DNA of 64,000 bases from an uncultured SAR86 cluster bacterium (GTDB taxonomy: Bacteria; Pseudomonadota; Gammaproteobacteria; Magnimaribacterales; Magnimaribacteraceae). Positions 39,433 to 53,718 of the stretch are shown in pieces. Location: NCBI GenBank assembly GCA_902517565.1, contig CABYCU010000001.1:62001-126000 (forward strand). Direction: 5' to 3'. The notes below the pieces were generated by a model. That model made no database searches. It saw only the letters and a list, made by a program, of their open reading frames with translations, and was not told where the DNA came from. Within the stretch, counting starts at the first letter, position 1; each line of letters begins with the position of its first letter. The position numbers and the translations under genes were made by a program.

Positions 39433-40416
39433 ATGAACGACAAAAAAAATAACGGAATACCCAATAAACAGATAGATGTCAGGAAGATATTTGATATAGA
39501 TGTCGACATGCAAGTATTAGCCTTTGATGAGCCTAATGAATATGTACCTACTATTGATGAATCCTATAAATTCGATAAAAATACAACTTTAGCTATTTTG
39601 GCAGGATTTACTCACAATAGAAGAGTGATGATTCAAGGCTATCACGGGTCCGGAAAATCAACTCACATAGAACAAGTTGCTGCTAGATTGAATTGGCCTT
39701 GTATTAGAGTAAATCTTGATAGCCACATAAGTCGAATAGACTTACTAGGCAAGGATGCCATCACCTTGAAAGATGGTAAACAAATTACTGAATTTAAAGA
39801 AGGAATTTTGCCTTGGGCATTACAAAGTCCTACTGCATTAGTTTTTGATGAATATGATGCAGGAAGACCTGATGTCATGTTCGTCATACAAAGAGTCTTA
39901 GAAGTAGAGGGCAAACTAACCTTACTGGATCAAAATAAAGTCATATCTCCACATTCTGGATTTAGGCTATTTGCCACTGCTAACACTGTGGGATTGGGTG
40001 ATACATCAGGTCTATATCATGGAACACAGCAGATAAATCAAGGGCAGATGGACAGATGGCATATCGTATCAACACTTAATTATCTCGACACAGATTTAGA
40101 GTTAAAAGTTATCCTCTCTAAGGTGCCCAGTCTAGACAATAAGGAAGGTCAAGAAATTGCAAAGAATATGATTTCAGTAGCCAATCTATCAAGACAAGGT
40201 TTTGCGAATGGTGATATATCTACTTTAATGTCTCCTAGAACGGTCATAAGCTGGGCAGAAAATAATCAAATTTTTGAAGATCTCAGTAAATCTTTTGAAA
40301 TAACGTTCTTAAATAAATGTGATGATACTGAAAGAGTTATTATTGCTGAATATTACCAAAGATGTTTTGATTCTGAAGTTCCTGATTCTATAGCGGAAGA
40401 AATAGAAAAAGTTTAG
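39433..40416 (+). CDS. cobS: CobS-like AAA+ ATPase
   Basis: MoxR-type AAA+ ATPase matching CobS, the ATPase subunit of aerobic cobaltochelatase. N-terminal IPNKQIDVRKIFDID is the CobS lead-in; Walker A GYHGSGKST is at residues 69-77; Walker B is ALVFDEYDAG; RLFATANTVG and the sensor region follow. Length 327 fits. It is 3 bases before cobT. The large chelatase subunit CobN is not in the window, and the partner genes of cobalamin synthesis are absent here. CobST homologues also occur in organisms that do not make B12, so another role is possible. Confidence 0.9.
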   Translation: MNDKKNNGIPNKQIDVRKIFDIDVDMQVLAFDEPNEYVPTIDESYKFDKNTTLAILAGFTHNRRVMIQGYHGSGKSTHIEQVAARLNWPCIRVNLDSHISRIDLLGKDAITLKDGKQITEFKEGILPWALQSPTALVFDEYDAGRPDVMFVIQRVLEVEGKLTLLDQNKVISPHSGFRLFATANTVGLGDTSGLYHGTQQINQGQMDRWHIVSTLNYLDTDLELKVILSKVPSLDNKEGQEIAKNMISVANLSRQGFANGDISTLMSPRTVISWAENNQIFEDLSKSFEITFLNKCDDTERVIIAEYYQRCFDSEVPDSIAEEIEKV

Positions 40417-40419
40417 CCA

Positions 40420-42174
40420 ATGGCTCCAAAAAATTCTCAGCAAGAGACTATAAAAGAAGTAGTTTCTGCAGCCACTAGAGCAATCTCTGGTAACCCTGAA
40501 ATAGAAATAAATTCTGGGGGTATGGGATCCTCTTTACCTAATCCACCTAAATCTCTAGAAGAACTTTCTGTATACAGAGGGAAGGCAGACGCTCTTGCTT
40601 GCGCAGAAAAATACAGAGATAAAACAATAAGAGAGAAGATAGGAAGCGGAAAGTTTAACTCTTTAATGAAAGTGATGGAGGATACGAGAGTTGAAATACT
40701 CGGATCATTAAATTATCCCGGAATTGCCACAAATATTTCTTCAAAATTTAATGATAAATGCAAGTTATATGAAAGCTTGGAGGATCAAGAAGATTATCTC
40801 GAAATAGCTCTAGAAACTTGGTTAAGAAAATTAAGCTTACCTGACGAAACATCTTCAAAGTCTAATCTTTTTCTTAAATTCTGGGGAAACCTCTTTGATA
40901 GTCAAGATGAAGGGCTTAAAAAAGAATTAATAGACAACCTAAAGGATCAATCAAAATTTCAAGAGATTGCTGAAAATTTTATTAAAAATCTAAACATCGA
41001 AGAAGAAGATGAATCTGAAGATAATGACTTGGAAGATGAAACAGAACAAGAAGAAGAGTCGGCTACTGAAACTGGAGAAGATGAAGAATCCCAAGAATCT
41101 GAGAGTTCACCTGAACAAGATAATCAAGAAGGTGATGAGGAGACCGATACAGAAGCGGGAGAGGCTGACGAAGATACAATTGTAGATGAGAATGAAGAGA
41201 TAATGACAAACCAATCTTGGTTAGAATCTCTTGTCGGACAAACTTCAAATTTTACCTATAAAGTCTATACAAGAAGTTTTGACGAAGAAATTAAGGCCGA
41301 AGAACTTTGCAGTCCTGAAGAGCTTCAGAGATTAAGAAAACACCTAGACCAATTAATGGGCCCTAGCAAAACTACTATTTCAAAGTTAGCACACAGACTA
41401 CAAAGATTCCTTATGGCTCAGCAAAATAGATCTTGGGAATTTAATAAAGAAGAAGGCATGTTAGATTCAGCTAGATTGCATAAAATCATTACCGACCCTC
41501 TTACACCTCTTACTTACAAGATAGAGAAAGATACAGAATTCAGAGATACAAGTGTTTCTATCTTGGTAGATAGTTCTGGTTCTATGAGAGGAAGATCGAT
41601 GACAGTTGCGGCGATATGCGCAGATATTATTAGTACTACATTAGAACGTTGTAATGTAAAAACTGAAGTACTAGGCTTTACTACTAAGCAATGGAAGGGT
41701 GGAGAAAGTAGAAAGATGTGGATGGAAGATGGAAAACCTGAAAATCCAGGAAGACTTAATGACATCAGACATATCATCTTTAAATCTGCAGATACTCCAT
41801 GGAGAAGAGGACAAAAAAACTTTGGGCTCATGCTGAGAGAGGGACTTCTCAAAGAGAATGTAGATGGAGAAGCTTTAATTTGGGCTCATGACAGACTTGC
41901 CAGAAGAAGTGAACAAAGAAAAATACTTATGGTAATTTCTGATGGAGCACCTGTAGACGACAGTACATTATCGACTAATCCAACCAACTTTTTGGATCTA
42001 CATCTAAGACAGGTAATCCATTCTATTGAAACTAAGTCTGATATAAATCTAATCGCAATAGGGATTGGACATGATGTTACTCGTTATTATAAAAATGCGG
42101 TGACTATACACAGAGCTGAAGAATTAGGCGGTGCGATGCTAGAGCAGCTAACAGATCTATTTAAAGTAGATTAA
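40420..42174 (+). CDS. cobT: CobT-like VWA-domain protein
   Basis: Partner of CobS. Three parts: an N-terminal helical region (to about 190), a very acidic Glu/Asp linker (about 193-265), and a C-terminal von Willebrand A domain with MIDAS motif DSSGSMRG near residue 385 and the [16 protein letters not shown] block typical of CobT. Length 584 (typical about 630). Such AAA+/VWA pairs load or remodel metal-bound partners; in cobalt insertion the target is CobN. The tandem diiron genes start 78 bases downstream on the same strand, so CobST might act on them; that is a guess from position. Confidence 0.9.
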
Positions 42175-42252
42175 AAATTCAAAAATTATTTTTTTAATAT
42201 AGGGCAGTTTTATAGAATTTACTGTAGAATTTGCAACCTATAGGATATAAAT

Positions 42253-43356
42253 ATGAAAATAACAGAAGTAGATAATTGCCCACCAGATTTAAGATATTTT
42301 GATAATGATGATCTGGAAAGTAAGCTCAAACCACAGGACGTAGAAGACATTGTAGAGATCTTTCAGACTCCTTTAACCGGCTCTTACAATTGGGATTATA
42401 CTCAAGCAGATAACAGGCTTAAGAAACTCTATGAGCTTGGCAAAAAACTTAATTGGAATGCTACTGTTGATTTAGATTGGACCAGAGAACGATATTCTCA
42501 TACAGATTGGGCAACTAACCCTGAATTCCAGCAATTAACTGGTTTTAAGCCTTATGATGACCTTCCAGAAGATAAAAAAATTGAATGTTCTTGGCATTTG
42601 TTAGCGAGCGGCCTAAGTCAGATAGTCCATGGTGAACAGGGAGCGCTATTAGTTGCGTCGCAGTTAGTTTCATGTGCTCCAACCTACAATGCAAAACTTT
42701 ATGCTGCTTCCCAAACCTTTGATGAAGCAAGGCATGTTGAAGTTTTTAATAAATATCTACAAGAAAGAATAGGATGGAATTACCCTGTAATGCCTGGTCT
42801 AAAGTTACTTCTAGATAAAATACTTTCTGACCCTAGGTGGGATCTAAAATTCATTGGAATGCAAATAATTATTGAAGGTCTTGCATTAGCTGCGTTTGAG
42901 AGGCAAAGAGCCGCTGTAATGGATCCTCTTCTGAAAGATCTTTTTTACCTAGTTATTAGAGATGAAGCAAGACATGTCACCTTTGGTGTTAACTATCTTG
43001 AAGAATTTGTTGATACCCTGTCCGAAAAAGAAAAAGAAGATAGAGCAGAGTTTGCTTATGAGGCTTGTGTTGTAATGAGAAATAGATTCGGTTCAGACAA
43101 TGTTATGAAGCATTATGGATGGAATGTAGATGAAGCTCAGGAAGTTTTAAATCAATCCGAAACATCGAGGCTCTTCAATAATCTTCTATTTTCAAAAATT
43201 ATGCCTAATTTAAAAAGGATTGGTCTTCTTACAGAGAAAACTCAAGAAAAGTATGAAGAAATGGATATATTACAATTCCAAGATTTAGAGGACCATGGTG
43301 CAATTGATTGGGACGAACTATCACAGCCTCTAGATTACTCATCGCAAACAGCTTAA
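42253..43356 (+). CDS. Ferritin-like diiron protein, first of a tandem pair
   Basis: A 367-residue four-helix-bundle protein with two complete EX29EXXH repeats: Glu128 (HGEQGALL) with Glu158/His161 in DEARH, and Glu208 (IIIEGLAL) with Glu238/His241 in the second DEARH. This is the carboxylate-bridged diiron pattern of R2, AurF-type N-oxygenases and related oxidases. No radical-bearing Tyr or ribonucleotide reductase signature is evident, and no NrdA is nearby. The substrate is unknown. No signal peptide. Four bases before the next gene's ribosome-binding region it is followed closely by a paralogue, so a heterodimer is possible. Confidence 0.85.
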   Translation: MKITEVDNCPPDLRYFDNDDLESKLKPQDVEDIVEIFQTPLTGSYNWDYTQADNRLKKLYELGKKLNWNATVDLDWTRERYSHTDWATNPEFQQLTGFKPYDDLPEDKKIECSWHLLASGLSQIVHGEQGALLVASQLVSCAPTYNAKLYAASQTFDEARHVEVFNKYLQERIGWNYPVMPGLKLLLDKILSDPRWDLKFIGMQIIIEGLALAAFERQRAAVMDPLLKDLFYLVIRDEARHVTFGVNYLEEFVDTLSEKEKEDRAEFAYEACVVMRNRFGSDNVMKHYGWNVDEAQEVLNQSETSRLFNNLLFSKIMPNLKRIGLLTEKTQEKYEEMDILQFQDLEDHGAIDWDELSQPLDYSSQTA

Positions 43357-43372
43357 GCTCGTTTTAGTAAAT

Positions 43373-44512
43373 ATGAAGATTAAGGTACTTGAAAATACTC
43401 CTGTTGACCCTAGAGAATTCGACCTTCCAGAGCAGTTTGGTGAAGAACATATTGAAGACATAGTAGAAATTTTCAATACTCCTTTAATTGGTCACTATAA
43501 TTGGGACTATACAGACGCTGACTCACGAATTAAAAAACTATATGAACTTGGCAAGAAACTTAATTGGGATGGGTCTATAGATTTAGATTGGTCGAAGGGA
43601 ATCAAAAAAGGCGAAGCGCCAGTAAAGGCAGAACTCTTAGCAAGAATGGAGGGACCGCTAAGCGCGCTACCTGAAGAAGAACGCCTAGAATATATGTGGC
43701 ATGATAGTGCCTGGTCCCTCAGTCAATTTCTTCATGGAGAGCAAGGTGCACTTTTGGTTGCTTCACAGCTAGTCTCATGCGCACCGACTTACCAAGCTAA
43801 GCTCTATGCAGCATCACAAACTTTTGATGAAGCTAGGCATGTAGAAGTATTTGCTAGGTATTTACGTGAAGTCTCAGGTGTAGAATATCCCGTAAATAAG
43901 AATCTAAAATCGTTATTAGATAAAATTCTTGCAGACCCTAGATGGGATCTAAAATTCATTGGAATGCAAATAATTATTGAAGGTTTAGCCTTGGCAGCTT
44001 TTCAAACTACCAAGGAGACATCAAACTGTGCTTTACTCAGACAGCTCGTTCACTATGTCATAAGAGATGAAGCGCGACATGTTACCTTTGGAGTTAACTA
44101 CTTAGAGGAGTTCCTAAAAACCCTAACTGAGGAAGAAGTAGAAGATAGAGCTATGTTTGCCTATGAGGCATGTGTGGTGATGAGAAACAGAATTATAAAT
44201 ACAGAATTGCCTGCAAGATGGTTCAATGTAAGCGAAGAAGAAATCATTGAGATGTTAGTGAATGATGAAACCCAGGATATGTTTACTAATCTCTTGTTTA
44301 GCAGAGTTATGCCTAATCTTAAGAGGATAGGTCTTCTGACTGATAAAGTTATGCCTTTGTATGAAAAACTGAACCTTACGTCTTATATGGATTCTAATAA
44401 TGAATTTGAAATTGACTGGGCAGAACTTAATAAACCTCTTGAATCTTCCAAGGAAATTGACAAACAGTCCGAAAAAGAATTAGCCGCACACACGGCCCAA
44501 GGATTGTTTTAA
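43373..44512 (+). CDS. Ferritin-like diiron protein, second of a tandem pair
   Basis: Paralogue of the preceding gene, 379 residues, with the same four ligand sets: Glu123, Glu153/His156, Glu203, Glu233/His236 (two DEARH motifs). The N-terminal region (EDIVEIFNTPLIGHYNWDYTDADSRIKKLYELGKKLNW) is shared nearly word for word with its neighbour. It has its own C-terminal tail of about 25 residues (SSKEIDKQSEKELAAHT). Both keep every metal ligand, so neither looks like a dead subunit. A 42-base stretch is identical in both genes. The stop codon overlaps the convergent protease stop by 4 bases. Confidence 0.85.
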   Translation: MKIKVLENTPVDPREFDLPEQFGEEHIEDIVEIFNTPLIGHYNWDYTDADSRIKKLYELGKKLNWDGSIDLDWSKGIKKGEAPVKAELLARMEGPLSALPEEERLEYMWHDSAWSLSQFLHGEQGALLVASQLVSCAPTYQAKLYAASQTFDEARHVEVFARYLREVSGVEYPVNKNLKSLLDKILADPRWDLKFIGMQIIIEGLALAAFQTTKETSNCALLRQLVHYVIRDEARHVTFGVNYLEEFLKTLTEEEVEDRAMFAYEACVVMRNRIINTELPARWFNVSEEEIIEMLVNDETQDMFTNLLFSRVMPNLKRIGLLTDKVMPLYEKLNLTSYMDSNNEFEIDWAELNKPLESSKEIDKQSEKELAAHTAQGLF

Positions 44513-47016
44513 TCTAATCTCAACTCCACATCGATCATAAAATAAGGTTCTATTTTAGATTTTTGATGTCCCTTATCTTTAGAAACACCCATTCGTCCAT
44601 ATAAATCTAATCTATTTGTACTAAGTTCATATACAAATTCAGAATTAATTTCTCGGTATTTGGGCGACAAGTCAAAATCTATAGAGCTAAATTGGATCTC
44701 TCTATTTTTATTTCTACGGTAAGGCATTGCCAGTTCTATGACAGATTCTTCAACCTTTAATGGCTGATCTACTCGAAATCCAAAATAATCATTGGCTTTA
44801 AGAAAACCTTTTTTGTAAATACCTATATTGAAGGAGCCAGAAACAATGTCTTGCATGGCAGTGATTAAGCTTTGCTCTTGAAAAGAAGGCTTAGTCTTTC
44901 CAATAAAGACTGAGCCTCTAGTCTCTATGCTTCTGTCTTGTCTGGTTATCTCTATACCGCCAAAATAAGTTTTACTTGATTCAAGCCCAAATGCTCCAGA
45001 AAGGGTTGATCCTAGAAGACTTTCTGCTTCATTTGTAATCCCTCCTTGAAGTGAAATAGAAGTTTTATTATGTCTAGATCTAAATTCAGTCAGCAAGCCA
45101 TTTGAAGCTTTTGACTTAATCAAGTAGCTATCATTCTCTCTATGACGACCAGAAAATAAAGCAAGAGATATTTCATTCTGAGCTGATAATATATTTCTAT
45201 ACCCTATAAAAGAACCGTCATAACTTAGTTCTAGGTATGGAGAGCCATAAAACCCCATGGTCTTATCTTTTGTAGACATGGATTCAGATTCATTGCCGAA
45301 ATATAGATTTGGACTATGTCCACTACCAGCAAATACAAGGTTCTTATCTGAAATAGGATGAATTATAGAAAAATAATTTAATACCTTTTTATTATCAGCC
45401 CATAGAGAAAGGCCTTCACTCTCAAAAGACAATCTTTCATTAAGACCAAAAGTGAGCCGGGCACCTTCAGCGGTCTTAAGCTCTCTGCGCTTTAATTTTC
45501 TTTTTATAAATGACTGATTAGATGCAAGCCAATTAGGTGAATAAAGATTAGAAAAAGATTTTGATCCTAGGCTCTTCCGAAATGGCGCTCCTAACTCATC
45601 TATAACGATTAAATTTGCACTTCCCATAAATTCGCCAATACCGCCACCAAATGCAGGACCTAACGAAAATATCTTTGTTGAGATTTCACTCAGTTTGAGA
45701 TTAGACAAGGCTTCACCCATAGTAGCTATCATTGTTGTACCTTGGGGCTTGGTAGCTTCATCTAGATCCATCAAGCCCTGACCATAGATATCTGAATCTG
45801 CATAAATCCCTGATTTGTCTGCTGTTAAAAAAAGTCTTTGTAATATTTCCGTATTACCGAGCTGCCCATCAAAAAAATCAACTAGTAGGGCTAAGCCTCC
45901 TGATACATGAGGTGCGGCCATTGAGGTTCCACTATATTCAGCGTAGTAATTATAATCTGGGGCATCTTGAGCATATGCACTTGTGATAGATCCTCCAGGA
46001 GCTGCTATGCAGTAATCTTTAGCAACACCGCATCTATTAGAAAAACTACTAATTTCTCCATTAGAATCTATAGATACAACTGCTGCACTATTGTTTCTTA
46101 ATTCAGAAATTAAAAAGGGTAGTCCCCCAAACACTTCTGGACTAGAGTAATCGACTCCCTGATCTGCATATCCTCCACCATTACCAGCTGACCATATAAA
46201 TAAGGTCTTGTCTGCTTCAGGAGTATCTTCTTGAGCAAGTACTTCTATTGTTTTAGGAAATGCACCTCTTAGATTATCTTCTGTATAGTCATTTATATTA
46301 CCCTGATAGCCAAAGCTACCATTAACAATTGTTACTCCTCTTTCAACAAAATAATTTTCTAATTGAGACCAACTATCATCTACTCCTGAATAATCTACCG
46401 ACGAATCTATTTGTGCTGGTTCGTAGTCTTCTCCTGCAGTACCTAGTTTTATCGAAATAAAGTAAAGTTGAGCATCAAAGGCTACGCCGTGCATTCCAGA
46501 TCCATCTCTTTCTCCAAGAGCTATTGCTGAGACATGTGTTCCATGCCTTTTTTCTTCTGTAGTAGGACTTCTATCTGAATAAACTAAATAACTGTCGGAA
46601 GTTAATTTATTCTCCCCATTTAACTCTTGATGAGTATTGTCTACACCTGAATCCATTATTCCTATAAGAGTTCCCTGGCCTGTTGCTCCTCTTGCATAAG
46701 CAGATGAGGCTTTAATCAATGACAAGCCTGTTTGTTCGATATACTCATCTGCACTTTCATAGGTTGCCTTATCTTGTTCAAAATCATTTGTAAGAATAAT
46801 TGCTCCAGAAATAGGTAGGCTACTGGATGGTGTTGGTGTTGGTGTTGGTGTTGGTGTTGGTGTAGGTGTAGGTGTAGGTGTTGGTGTAGGGCTTGGTGTT
46901 GGGGTAGAGCTACCAGTTGGATTTGTAGGAGAGGGATCACTTCCCCCGCCGCCTCCACCACCACAAGAAACTAACGTAAATAAGCAAGCCAAAAGTAAGA
47001 TAGAAATCTTCTTCAT
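44509..47016 (-). CDS. Surface S8 (subtilisin-type) protease lipoprotein with C-terminal beta-rich domain
   Basis: Secreted serine protease, 835 residues. A lipoprotein signal ends LVSC (Cys18), followed by a glycine run and a Thr-Pro tract (about 37-60). The S8 domain has Asp119 (IMDSGVD), His158 (RHGTHVS), oxyanion Asn276 (SAGNGGG) and Ser362 (YSGTSMAAPHVSGG), so all catalytic residues are present. From about 440 to the end the sequence is beta-rich, alternates hydrophobic and polar residues and lacks a domain I can name; it resembles an autotransporter barrel, though it ends ELRLD instead of Phe/Trp. It overlaps the upstream VOC gene by 4 bases. Confidence 0.85.
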   Translation of the reverse strand: MKKISILLLACLFTLVSCGGGGGGGSDPSPTNPTGSSTPTPSPTPTPTPTPTPTPTPTPTPTPSSSLPISGAIILTNDFEQDKATYESADEYIEQTGLSLIKASSAYARGATGQGTLIGIMDSGVDNTHQELNGENKLTSDSYLVYSDRSPTTEEKRHGTHVSAIALGERDGSGMHGVAFDAQLYFISIKLGTAGEDYEPAQIDSSVDYSGVDDSWSQLENYFVERGVTIVNGSFGYQGNINDYTEDNLRGAFPKTIEVLAQEDTPEADKTLFIWSAGNGGGYADQGVDYSSPEVFGGLPFLISELRNNSAAVVSIDSNGEISSFSNRCGVAKDYCIAAPGGSITSAYAQDAPDYNYYAEYSGTSMAAPHVSGGLALLVDFFDGQLGNTEILQRLFLTADKSGIYADSDIYGQGLMDLDEATKPQGTTMIATMGEALSNLKLSEISTKIFSLGPAFGGGIGEFMGSANLIVIDELGAPFRKSLGSKSFSNLYSPNWLASNQSFIKRKLKRRELKTAEGARLTFGLNERLSFESEGLSLWADNKKVLNYFSIIHPISDKNLVFAGSGHSPNLYFGNESESMSTKDKTMGFYGSPYLELSYDGSFIGYRNILSAQNEISLALFSGRHRENDSYLIKSKASNGLLTEFRSRHNKTSISLQGGITNEAESLLGSTLSGAFGLESSKTYFGGIEITRQDRSIETRGSVFIGKTKPSFQEQSLITAMQDIVSGSFNIGIYKKGFLKANDYFGFRVDQPLKVEESVIELAMPYRRNKNREIQFSSIDFDLSPKYREINSEFVYELSTNRLDLYGRMGVSKDKGHQKSKIEPYFMIDVELRLD
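46829..46906 (-). repeat. Hexanucleotide tandem repeat coding the Thr-Pro tract
   Basis: About 13 copies of a 6-base unit (GGTGTT or GGTGTA on the plus strand, ACACCA-type on the coding strand): ten near-perfect, then three degenerate. Each unit codes for Thr-Pro, so gain or loss keeps the frame and only changes the linker length between the lipid anchor and the protease. Confidence 0.9.
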
Positions 47017-47747
47017 ACTAAATAAAATTTTACTCCTCCAATAACAACCTCTCCTGCATTTATGTATCCAAGCTCATTAGCTTTTTTAATTAATTTTTGT
47101 GGATCATTAACCTTTAAGCTGAAGGCTGATACACCTGCCCCCCTTCCATCTTGATCTTCCACAAATTTTATCCAAGTATTATCAAGAAATATTGATTTAG
47201 ACTCTAAATCTATTTTATTTGTGCCTAAAACCTCATTCCAGCTGTTAAACATCTCTTCAGGATTTGTAGACTGTATCTCAACTCCATCTACAGCCTTAAC
47301 ATAGCCAGACATATGGCTTTTCCAGTCAGGTCCAGCCCATTTCCAACTATCTTTTGGGTTCATCCAATCTAAAGATAAAATTGCACCGCCCATTTCTTTT
47401 GGATGAAGATGGATTGCTTTAGCTTCCGGTAAATCTGTTTCCCATACAATGCCTACATCATTTTGATTAACCCGTTCTTTGGAAGTATCAAAATCATCGA
47501 CTTGAATAATAACCATATAGCCACCATCGCCATTACGCTTATCTAGGAATCTTCCGGCAGTTGTATTCTCTTCTATCGGACTCACTACTTCTAAGAAATC
47601 TGTTCCAATAGGAATAACAGCATTTTCTAATCCAAAATGTGCAACACCAGGATCATTAAAGGATACTTCAAATTTAAATAAATTACAGAGGTCTTCAACA
47701 ATCGGATCACGTAGCTGTGAAACCATTACTATTTGCCTTATATCCAC
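47013..47747 (-). CDS. VOC-family (glyoxalase-like) protein
   Basis: A 244-residue protein that looks like a glyoxalase_3-type vicinal-oxygen-chelate fold: MDIRQIVMVSQLRDPIVEDLCNLF at the start, FLEVVSPIEENTTAGRFLDKRNGDGGYMVIIQ in the first half, then a second module around GYVKAVDGVEIQST with a KVNDPQKLIKKANELGY helix. No signal peptide. The product could be a dioxygenase-like, lyase or binding protein; I cannot name the substrate. Its stop overlaps the protease start by 4 bases, so co-translation is likely although no functional link is obvious. Confidence 0.72.
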   Translation of the reverse strand: MDIRQIVMVSQLRDPIVEDLCNLFKFEVSFNDPGVAHFGLENAVIPIGTDFLEVVSPIEENTTAGRFLDKRNGDGGYMVIIQVDDFDTSKERVNQNDVGIVWETDLPEAKAIHLHPKEMGGAILSLDWMNPKDSWKWAGPDWKSHMSGYVKAVDGVEIQSTNPEEMFNSWNEVLGTNKIDLESKSIFLDNTWIKFVEDQDGRGAGVSAFSLKVNDPQKLIKKANELGYINAGEVVIGGVKFYLV

Positions 47748-47819
47748 TTACAAACTCCCCTTATAAACATTTATAATATTCACTCACCTTATAATAACTT
47801 AATTAAAAAAATAATCTTA

Positions 47820-48650
47820 ATGAATATATCAGTTGATTTTGGAATAACTGTAACAGATACGATCAGAAAAAAGGGGTCAGAAATAATTCATAAAATGGAG
47901 TTAAGTTCTGAAGAAGTTAGTCATAACAGAGTAAAGGATTTATTTCCTGATATAGATTTTAGTTCTAATTCTGGATTTCTAGCAGTGACTGGAGGAAAAC
48001 ATCTTCAATTAGGTGAGATTATAGAATCTACACCAATCATTCATGTTAATGAGATAGATGCAATCGGCGAAGGGTCTATGCATCTTTCTGGATTGAGTAA
48101 AGAACAATCTGTGATCATTGTAAGTGCTGGATCTGGTACAGCTTGTATTCATGCTCATAAAGGAATTTTTACGCATTGTTCAGGAACGGGTGTGGGAGGA
48201 GGAACTGTTTTAGGTTTAAGCAAACTCATGTTGGGAACAGATAATCCTGAAGAAATTGCCTTGTTAGCGAATAAGGGTAGTGAAGGCAATGTAGATTTAA
48301 TATTAGAAGATGTTGTGTCAGGACCTATAGGACAACTTCCTTCAGATACTACGGCTGTAAACTTTGGTAAAGTTCCTAAAGTTAATGATAGATTTGCAAA
48401 GGAAGATATTGCAGCAGGAATTGTCAACTTAGTAGGTCAGACGGCAGCGAGAATAGCTACCTCCGTAGCTATGATTTTTAAAGCTGATCAGATTGTTGTA
48501 GTGGGAAGAACTCCTACATTTATTGGTCTTAGAAATTCACTTGAACAAGCAGCTGCTCTAACTGGTTTTACACCTCATTTTCCTGAAAATGGAGAATATG
48601 CTTCAGCTTTAGGTGCTTTGTTAATGGCAGAAAAAAACCCTCCTAATTAG
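47820..48650 (+). CDS. coaW: Type II pantothenate kinase
   Basis: Phosphorylates pantothenate, the first step of coenzyme A synthesis. It matches the Staphylococcus type II PanK in order: ISVDFG near the start, VTGG, VSAGSGTACI, GTGVGGGTVLG, DTTAVNFGKV, VVVGRTP and PENGEYASALGALL. The open frame begins at 47733, but the ATG at 47820 gives 276 residues with VDFG at the start, close to the usual 267. Most gammaproteobacteria use type I CoaA or type III CoaX. The last codons overlap the rRNA terminator. Divergent from the VOC gene by 72 bases. Confidence 0.85.
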   Translation: MNISVDFGITVTDTIRKKGSEIIHKMELSSEEVSHNRVKDLFPDIDFSSNSGFLAVTGGKHLQLGEIIESTPIIHVNEIDAIGEGSMHLSGLSKEQSVIIVSAGSGTACIHAHKGIFTHCSGTGVGGGTVLGLSKLMLGTDNPEEIALLANKGSEGNVDLILEDVVSGPIGQLPSDTTAVNFGKVPKVNDRFAKEDIAAGIVNLVGQTAARIATSVAMIFKADQIVVVGRTPTFIGLRNSLEQAAALTGFTPHFPENGEYASALGALLMAEKNPPN

Positions 48651-48673: not shown

Positions 48674-48789
48674 GTCTGACGATGTCCTACTCTCACATGG
48701 TCGCAACCACACTACCATCGGCGCTAAGAGGTTTCACTTCTGAGTTCGAAAAGGTATCAGGTGGTTCACTCTTGCTATTGTCATCAGAC
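48674..48789 (-). rRNA. rrf: 5S ribosomal RNA
   Basis: About 116 bases whose termini pair (GTCTGATGAC... with ...CGTCAGAC) and which hold the conserved core, including CCGAACTCAGAAGTGAAAC-like and GGTAGTGTGG-like segments, read on the minus strand. The ends are set from the terminal stem. It follows 23S by about 60 bases and is followed by the terminator. No tRNA lies behind it. Confidence 0.95.
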
Positions 48790-48840
48790 AGAAACTTATA
48801 AATTCAACCATTAATAATTTGGCTTATATCAAGAAATTAC

Positions 48841-48850
48841 TTGATGTAAT

Positions 48851-48859
<9 letters not shown>
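48841..48859 (-). repeat. 23S processing stem, 3' arm
   Basis: Nineteen bases here (TTGATGTAATACGGTCAAG on the plus strand) pair with 51754-51772, one G-U pair being the only deviation. This brings the two ends of 23S together as the usual RNase III substrate. Confidence 0.85.
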
Positions 48860-51753
<2,894 letters not shown>

Positions 51754-51760
<7 letters not shown>

Positions 51761-51772
51761 ATATTACATCAA
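51754..51772 (-). repeat. 23S processing stem, 5' arm
   Basis: Complement of 48841-48859 (CTTGACCATATTACATCAA on the plus strand). It contains the mature 5' end of 23S and the last bases of the 16S-23S spacer. Confidence 0.85.
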
Positions 51773-52062
51773 TTAACTTAATGATATTTTCAAGAATTTC
51801 TATCTACTATATGTGTTTAAAAAACACATTATTTGTGTTTTGAAAAACACAAAAAACGCCAAATTACTTTGCAGTTATTCAACAATATATTATTTAAAAA
51901 TAAAATATTGAAGAATACTTAATTTGCATATCTAAAACATAAATGCTTTTGATATGACTTGATTGAACTTATAAAAATGTTAAAAAACTCATCTTTTATC
52001 TTATTAAAGATAAAGATAAATAAGTAATTCGTGTGAACGCCTATAAAAAAACGATTTTATTT
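51761..52062 (-). other. 16S-23S internal transcribed spacer without tRNA genes
   Basis: About 300 bases, very AT-rich. I looked for the tRNA-Ile and tRNA-Ala acceptor ends and T-loops (GGTTCGA-type) on both strands and found none. It contains two short hairpins around 51811-51850 (ATGTGTTT-AAA-AAACACAT and TTTGTGTTTT-GAAAAACACAAA), the 5' arm of the 23S stem, and the 3' arm of the 16S stem. Confidence 0.88.
52020..52035 (-). repeat. 16S processing stem, 3' arm
   Basis: ATAAGTAATTCGTGTG is the exact complement of bases 53719-53734 in front of 16S. The 16-bp helix would hold the 16S precursor for RNase III cleavage. Confidence 0.88.
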
Positions 52063-53614
<1,552 letters not shown>

Positions 53615-53718
53615 GAATTTTGAATTAAGTGCCAAAAATGACACTAAGTCAGCTTATTTATACATATAAATACATATAAATTACCGACTTTGGTAAGTTG
53701 CGCTTAATTATAAGCGCC

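Follow-up and report, generated by a model that had tools for sequence, protein, structure and literature searches.

A tandem pair of AurF-superfamily dimetal proteins encoded behind an orphan cobS-cobT pair in SAR86 bacteria

AAA+ ATPases of the MoxR class, working with VWA proteins, are an established type of metalloenzyme maturase. NorQ and NorD insert non-heme iron into cNOR; the MIDAS of NorD is required for active cNOR and dispensable for NorQ binding, and the energy of ATP hydrolysis is proposed to open the client through a twisting and stretching of NorD (PMC9976466, PMC13036017). At the CuSMo cluster of CO dehydrogenase, the acting proteins are CoxD and CoxE (PMC4240915), and CobST is the motor of cobaltochelatase (PMC7689651). 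The locus described here resembles NorQ/NorD, CbbQ/CbbO and CoxD/CoxE in that an AAA+ ATPase and a VWA/MIDAS partner are encoded beside a metalloenzyme. Unlike in those systems, the two partners belong to the CobS/CobT type and would have a ferritin-like dimetal protein as their client. Our search of the literature returned no report of a CobS/CobT-type pair with such a client.

The window, that is, the whole stretch of 64,000 nucleotides analysed, comes from a SAR86 genome of 1.21 Mb, 75% complete, belonging to a family designated f1. Gene A (42253..43356, + strand) encodes a protein of 367 residues and gene B (43373..44512, + strand) one of 379 residues, with 16 bases between them (43357..43372, +). 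The sequence-only reading of this DNA had described tandem paralogues of these lengths and spacing, each with two complete EX29EXXH sets, and both points were confirmed. In A, the half-sites are E128-X29-E158xxH161 and E208-X29-E238xxH241, giving the ligands E128, E158, H161, E208, E238 and H241, assigned from the sequence and from an alignment of 130 relatives. In B, they are E123-X29-E153xxH156 and E203-X29-E233xxH236, hence E123, E153, H156, E203, E233 and H236, assigned from the sequence. All four EXXH sites of the pair have the form DEARH, and the six ligands are invariant in 130 out of 130 collected relatives. A and B are 58% identical over their full length (BLASTP, E 2e-146), with 75% identity in the catalytic core (118-260) and 48-49% in the N- and C-terminal parts. 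Against the AurF family, PF11583, A scored 57.0 bits and B 36.0 bits, both above the gathering score of 29.6. With the ligands kept throughout, the AurF score exceeded and the tandem preserved at every f1 locus (see below), neither the arrangement nor the ligand sets can be put down to chance. As the A-to-B spacer only varies from about -4 to 18 bases in relatives, a single operon is indicated.

The AF2 model of A (mean pLDDT 77.4, with poorly modelled stretches at 1-22, 35-56 and 360-367) has, by Foldseek and structural Z, a predicted ferritin-like fold, a four-helix bundle with two E...EXXH half-sites. The best structural Z scores, 21.3 for ADO, 20.2 for R2lox, 19.8 for the VlmB group and 19.4 for AurF, are effectively tied on this model. 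A sequence search of the PDB gave R2lox and ADO as nearest, at low significance (best R2lox 7qbk, 1.3e-6). By family score, ligand set and modelled fold for A, and by family score and tree placement for B, the two proteins are assigned to PF11583 and to the broad dimetal-carboxylate ferritin-like superfamily, in line with the R2-/AurF-type diiron pattern first read from the sequence.

Within this superfamily, A and B share with AurF and CmlI the passing PF11583 score, the ferritin-like fold (AurF 3chu, Z 19.4 over 267 residues) and the two E...EXXH half-sites. However, identity in the structural alignment is only 12-13%, and no biosynthetic cluster is found near A and B. AurF and CmlI have a seventh ligand, a His that precedes the last Glu by four residues; at the corresponding position (234 in A), 116 of the 130 relatives have Val and the other 14 have Ile. 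ADO gave the top structural Z (21.3, at 2.6 A over 207 residues) and has a six-ligand site, but A and B exceed it in length by about 130 residues, have no gene for an acyl-ACP reductase beside them, and score below the family cut-offs (PF11266, 17.6 and 19.5 bits for A and B, cut-off 28; the NCBIfam model TIGR04059, 18.2 and 20.5 bits, far below 222.65). R2lox and RNR R2 are alike in fold (Z about 20) and ligand pattern, whereas the curated cut-offs were not reached: PF00268 (R2) gave 16.8 and 17.3 bits for A and B against 33.6, and the NCBIfam R2lox models (PRK08326) 32.9 bits at best against 194. In class Ia and Ib R2, the radical Tyr lies four residues after the His of the first half-site; this position is Phe in A (F165) and in B (F160). 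The statement of the sequence-only reading that neither nrdA nor a reductase is close was right for the A-B locus. DUF455 and Phenol_Hydrox (Pfam) gave only sub-threshold matches. An identity as AurF-type arylamine N-oxygenase, R2, ADO or R2lox is thus out by the tests run, and the pair adds a new, uncharacterised set of members to a known superfamily. As to the substrate of A and B, the long-chain fatty ligands bound by ADO and R2lox give only a hint, by analogy.

Upstream of A lie a cobS-like gene encoding a MoxR-class AAA+ ATPase (39433..40416, +; AAA_5 and CobS_N above cut-off) and a cobT-like gene encoding a VWA-domain protein (40420..42174, +; CobT_C 1.8e-95, CobT 6.9e-31). cobT starts 3 bases after cobS, and the A-B pair comes directly after these two genes, which the sequence-only reading had passed over although they are the strongest clue at the locus. 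The Walker A (GYHGSGKST) and Walker B (LVFDE) motifs of CobS are intact, as is the MIDAS motif (DSSGS) of CobT. The locus has homologues of CobS and CobT arranged as for the CobNST aerobic cobaltochelatase, but both proteins fall under the cobaltochelatase equivalog cut-offs (CobS, TIGR01650, 528.7 bits against 558.55; CobT, TIGR01651, 617.8 bits against 759.05). The same was found for CobS and CobT of AqS3, a sponge symbiont outside SAR86, while among unlinked comparison proteins the CobS of genome G410 and the CobT of genome G437 passed, and the CobT of G410 was just below. Cobaltochelatase requires CobN. No CobN (PF02514) was found in any of 41 SAR86 genomes, in a search whose control was positive in 5 of 14. 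Without CobN, the SAR86 CobST cannot serve cobalt insertion into B12, and a role as B12 cobaltochelatase is ruled out; where CobN is missing, CobS and CobT can easily be mistaken for a sign of B12 synthesis.

A gene-content survey of 61 SAR86 genomes, in families f1 to f4, was used to follow the linkage. A diiron gene was the next gene downstream of CobT, on the same strand, in 44 of 45 CobT-bearing genomes from three families, the single exception being G029; in G003 (seen as L006), cobT and the diiron gene are separated by an extra ORF. Behind cobT, the A-B tandem was present in 28 genomes of f1, where it was kept at 28 of 28 loci, and a single diiron gene in 15 genomes of f2 and f3. The flanks of the cobS-cobT-diiron block differ between families and the block itself is constant. 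Nevertheless, gltBD, a thioesterase gene and a pantothenate-kinase-like gene surround the locus in several families, and the linkage is partly inherited synteny. The cobT-to-A spacer in the window is A+T-rich and 78 bases long (42175..42252, +); it measured 24 to 246 bases, and once 1039, in f1 relatives, versus -8 to 74 bases between cobT and the diiron gene in the other SAR86 lineages. It may hold a separate promoter for A-B.

In AqS3, a diiron gene and cobS-cobT point away from each other, about 0.5 kb apart, and the flanks, rplM/rpsI/cytochrome bc1-type genes, are not common to SAR86. The chance of this linkage is about 0.2%, a rough and post hoc estimate from 3 diiron genes and 1 cobST locus among about 3000 genes. 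The linked CobST of SAR86 and AqS3 stand on one side of a branch supported at 99%, with the unlinked CobST on the other, AqS3 being a long branch. This separation makes it possible that the linkage is old and has survived rearrangement. Of the features of a MoxR/VWA maturase locus, a Walker A/B ATPase encoded together with a MIDAS VWA protein is present in the window, and an adjoining gene for the presumed client metalloenzyme is found for 44 of the 45 SAR86 CobT genes and in AqS3. In related sponge-symbiont genomes, a VWA_CoxE gene (PF05762, 1.6e-37) directly follows the diiron gene (L061, 9782-12750; L064, 876-3434; also neighbouring loci); VWA_CoxE is another type of MoxR-associated VWA protein, here with no MoxR partner located.

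Outside these groups, the association was loose. Relatives about 60% identical occur in Alcanivorax, Moraxellaceae and others, and CobT was absent from 15 of 22 such diiron-bearing genomes. Three other genomes carried both CobST and diiron genes at separate places, and none of 10 loci fetched from a phylum-wide search had CobST beside the diiron gene. Conversely, many gammaproteobacteria have CobST without this diiron family. A universal dependence of the family on CobST was rejected on the 15 CobT-less genomes and the 10 phylum-wide loci. Family f4 lacks CobT and carries a single diiron gene, and together with the CobT-less relatives this implies that the fold in general needs no CobST. The f4 gene (L113, 7438-8574; L095, 1450-2565) is located elsewhere and has a long branch (0.58). 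CobT was lost in f4, and the long diiron branch fits a protein freed from the need for a chaperone.

In the tree, B falls together with the cobT-linked f2 and f3 copies, and the B-type copy reaches across SAR86. A was found only in f1 among the SAR86 genomes searched; it stands apart and tends toward AqS3 and other gammaproteobacterial genes, with moderate support (SH-aLRT 89). A recent local tandem duplication was rejected, as a tree holding A and f1-B alone as one clade gave a p-AU of 0.0055. Holding all SAR86 cobT-linked and f4 copies together was as good as the free tree (p-AU 0.506). From these two values, the split between A and B predates f1 and possibly the diversification of SAR86. 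One helical turn before ligand E128, A has Ile124 where all other relatives have Phe or Tyr, and after the E208 helix it has an ERQR stretch (216-219) that few or no other relatives share. These changes suggest an altered substrate pocket in A, and not a degenerate partner. Two further sets of copies were seen. Genome G056 (f2) has, in addition to a full cobT-linked copy, a second, N-terminally shortened tandem copy (L107, 7590-9617), apparently an independent tandem event. A third diiron paralogue, C, lies between dnaB and pyrG across SAR86, the window genome included (L002, 1501-2574; L075, 10001-11113; G021, G026 and G033), and in three genomes of one genus (g4) its frame has an internal TAA.

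No gene for an electron donor is encoded at the A-B locus, and none neighbours the close subfamily. Distant relatives, 37-40% identical, adjoin PaaE/BenC/MmoC-type FAD/NAD/2Fe-2S reductases in three genomes (L127, 2467-4972; L185, 8396-10559; L186, 5294-8399), and from these gene pairs they are probable two-component oxygenases. This supports an oxygenase role for A and B. In SAR86, no PaaE-type reductase (TIGR02160) was found above cut-off, and the weak partial matches, at about 45 bits, are probably NqrF-like, plus short ferredoxins. The neighbours did not yield a substrate either, as the upstream thioesterase, enoyl-CoA hydratase and serine acetyltransferase genes are not all kept across families. 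The function had been called unknown from the sequence alone; the field is narrowed by the CobST link and by the PaaE-type reductases of the distant relatives.

Our favoured reading, to which we give a rough probability of 0.45, is that A and B are two AurF-superfamily dimetal oxygenases, each a homodimer, matured by the orphan CobS/CobT acting like NorQD. Its parts differ in strength: from family scores and modelled fold, dimetal oxygenase is the likely enzyme class, and by analogy CobST is a plausible maturase. A and B would be long-separated paralogues in an uncharacterised AurF/R2-like ferritin subfamily, each most likely its own homodimer binding two metal ions (Fe/Fe or Mn/Fe) via the six conserved Glu and His. 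They would activate O2, draw electrons from a general cellular donor and oxidise a substrate that is small, organic and probably hydrophobic. CobS, as AAA+ ring, and CobT, as VWA/MIDAS adaptor, would form an ATP-driven maturase or activase of the NorQ/NorD kind: the CobT MIDAS would dock on the folded apo-enzyme, and ATP hydrolysis by CobS would open it for metal loading or reactivation. That CobST serves A and B is plausible given that there is no CobN to serve, that the linkage is conserved and recurrent, and that NorQD and CoxDE offer precedents. We are more guarded about the broader proposition, that orphan CobS/CobT is an ATP-driven machine dedicated to loading metal into ferritin-like dimetal oxygenases or to reactivating them. 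If true, it would add a new client class and fold to the MoxR/VWA metal-insertion machines, explain CobST in bacteria unable to make B12, correct the annotation of CobST in an abundant group of ocean bacteria, and give a first handle on an uncharacterised oxygenase subfamily found in Gammaproteobacteria and in further classes of proteobacteria. What makes the locus interesting is the association with orphan CobST, although many close relatives of the diiron proteins have no CobST.

A serious competitor, somewhat less probable, takes A and B as ordinary AurF-like oxygenases, with CobST as an unrelated orphan chaperone that has another client and merely shares their compact operon. It agrees with the small and syntenic genomes of SAR86, with the many gammaproteobacteria carrying CobST without the diiron family and with the diiron genes that lack CobT in most other lineages; the long and variable cobT-A spacer in f1 would moreover leave A-B its own promoter. 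However, the cobT-diiron junction stays intact in 44 of 45 genomes while the outer neighbours change, AqS3 shows the linkage again with other flanks and a different gene orientation, CobN is absent, and CobST has diverged from the true cobaltochelatase subunits.

Two other explanations concern the enzymes themselves, and we consider each of them improbable. According to one, A and B act on no external substrate and are either oxidases resembling R2lox or ferritin-like proteins for handling iron. R2lox is indeed among the nearest structures and sequence matches, and the locus has no dedicated reductase and SAR86 none of the PaaE type; yet distant relatives adjoin oxygenase-type reductases, and the R2lox models remained far from their cut-off. 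According to the other, already raised by the sequence-only reading, A and B assemble only with each other, giving a heteromer that has two complete dimetal sites and would be a new arrangement. The tandem fixed in f1, with its tight spacing of about -4 to 18 bases, would suit this, and the contrast between a 75% identical core and ends of 48-49% identity would permit an asymmetric interface. AurF and R2lox, however, are homodimers, and B-type genes stand alone in f2 and f3 just as A-like genes do elsewhere, so that neither needs the other and an obligate heteromer is unlikely. The reading had counted conservation of only one of the pair as evidence against its idea; this is partly the case, since B is distributed more widely than A. 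A and B were modelled as one read-through chain, on the basis that they are in one frame in some relatives, which gave a pLDDT of 39.9 and a pTM of 0.28, too low to bear on the pairing in either direction; a larger mixed alignment was left unused, as all its single rows fell on the B half. In our preferred reading, A and B are probably separate homodimers.

Downstream, a gene for a secreted subtilase (Peptidase_S8, 1.1e-42; 44509-47016, - strand) converges on B, the two stops overlapping by 4 bases. In its product, the signal peptide is followed by a long linker of Pro/Thr repeats, and there is an apparent C-terminal beta-barrel, and the gene is present in most f1 relatives. Further on, a type II pantothenate-kinase-like gene (Fumble, 2.7e-19; 47733-48650, +) is kept downstream in several SAR86 families. 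It is followed by a complete 5S-23S-16S rRNA operon (48674-53615, -), which accounts for the ORF-free stretch downstream of A-B.
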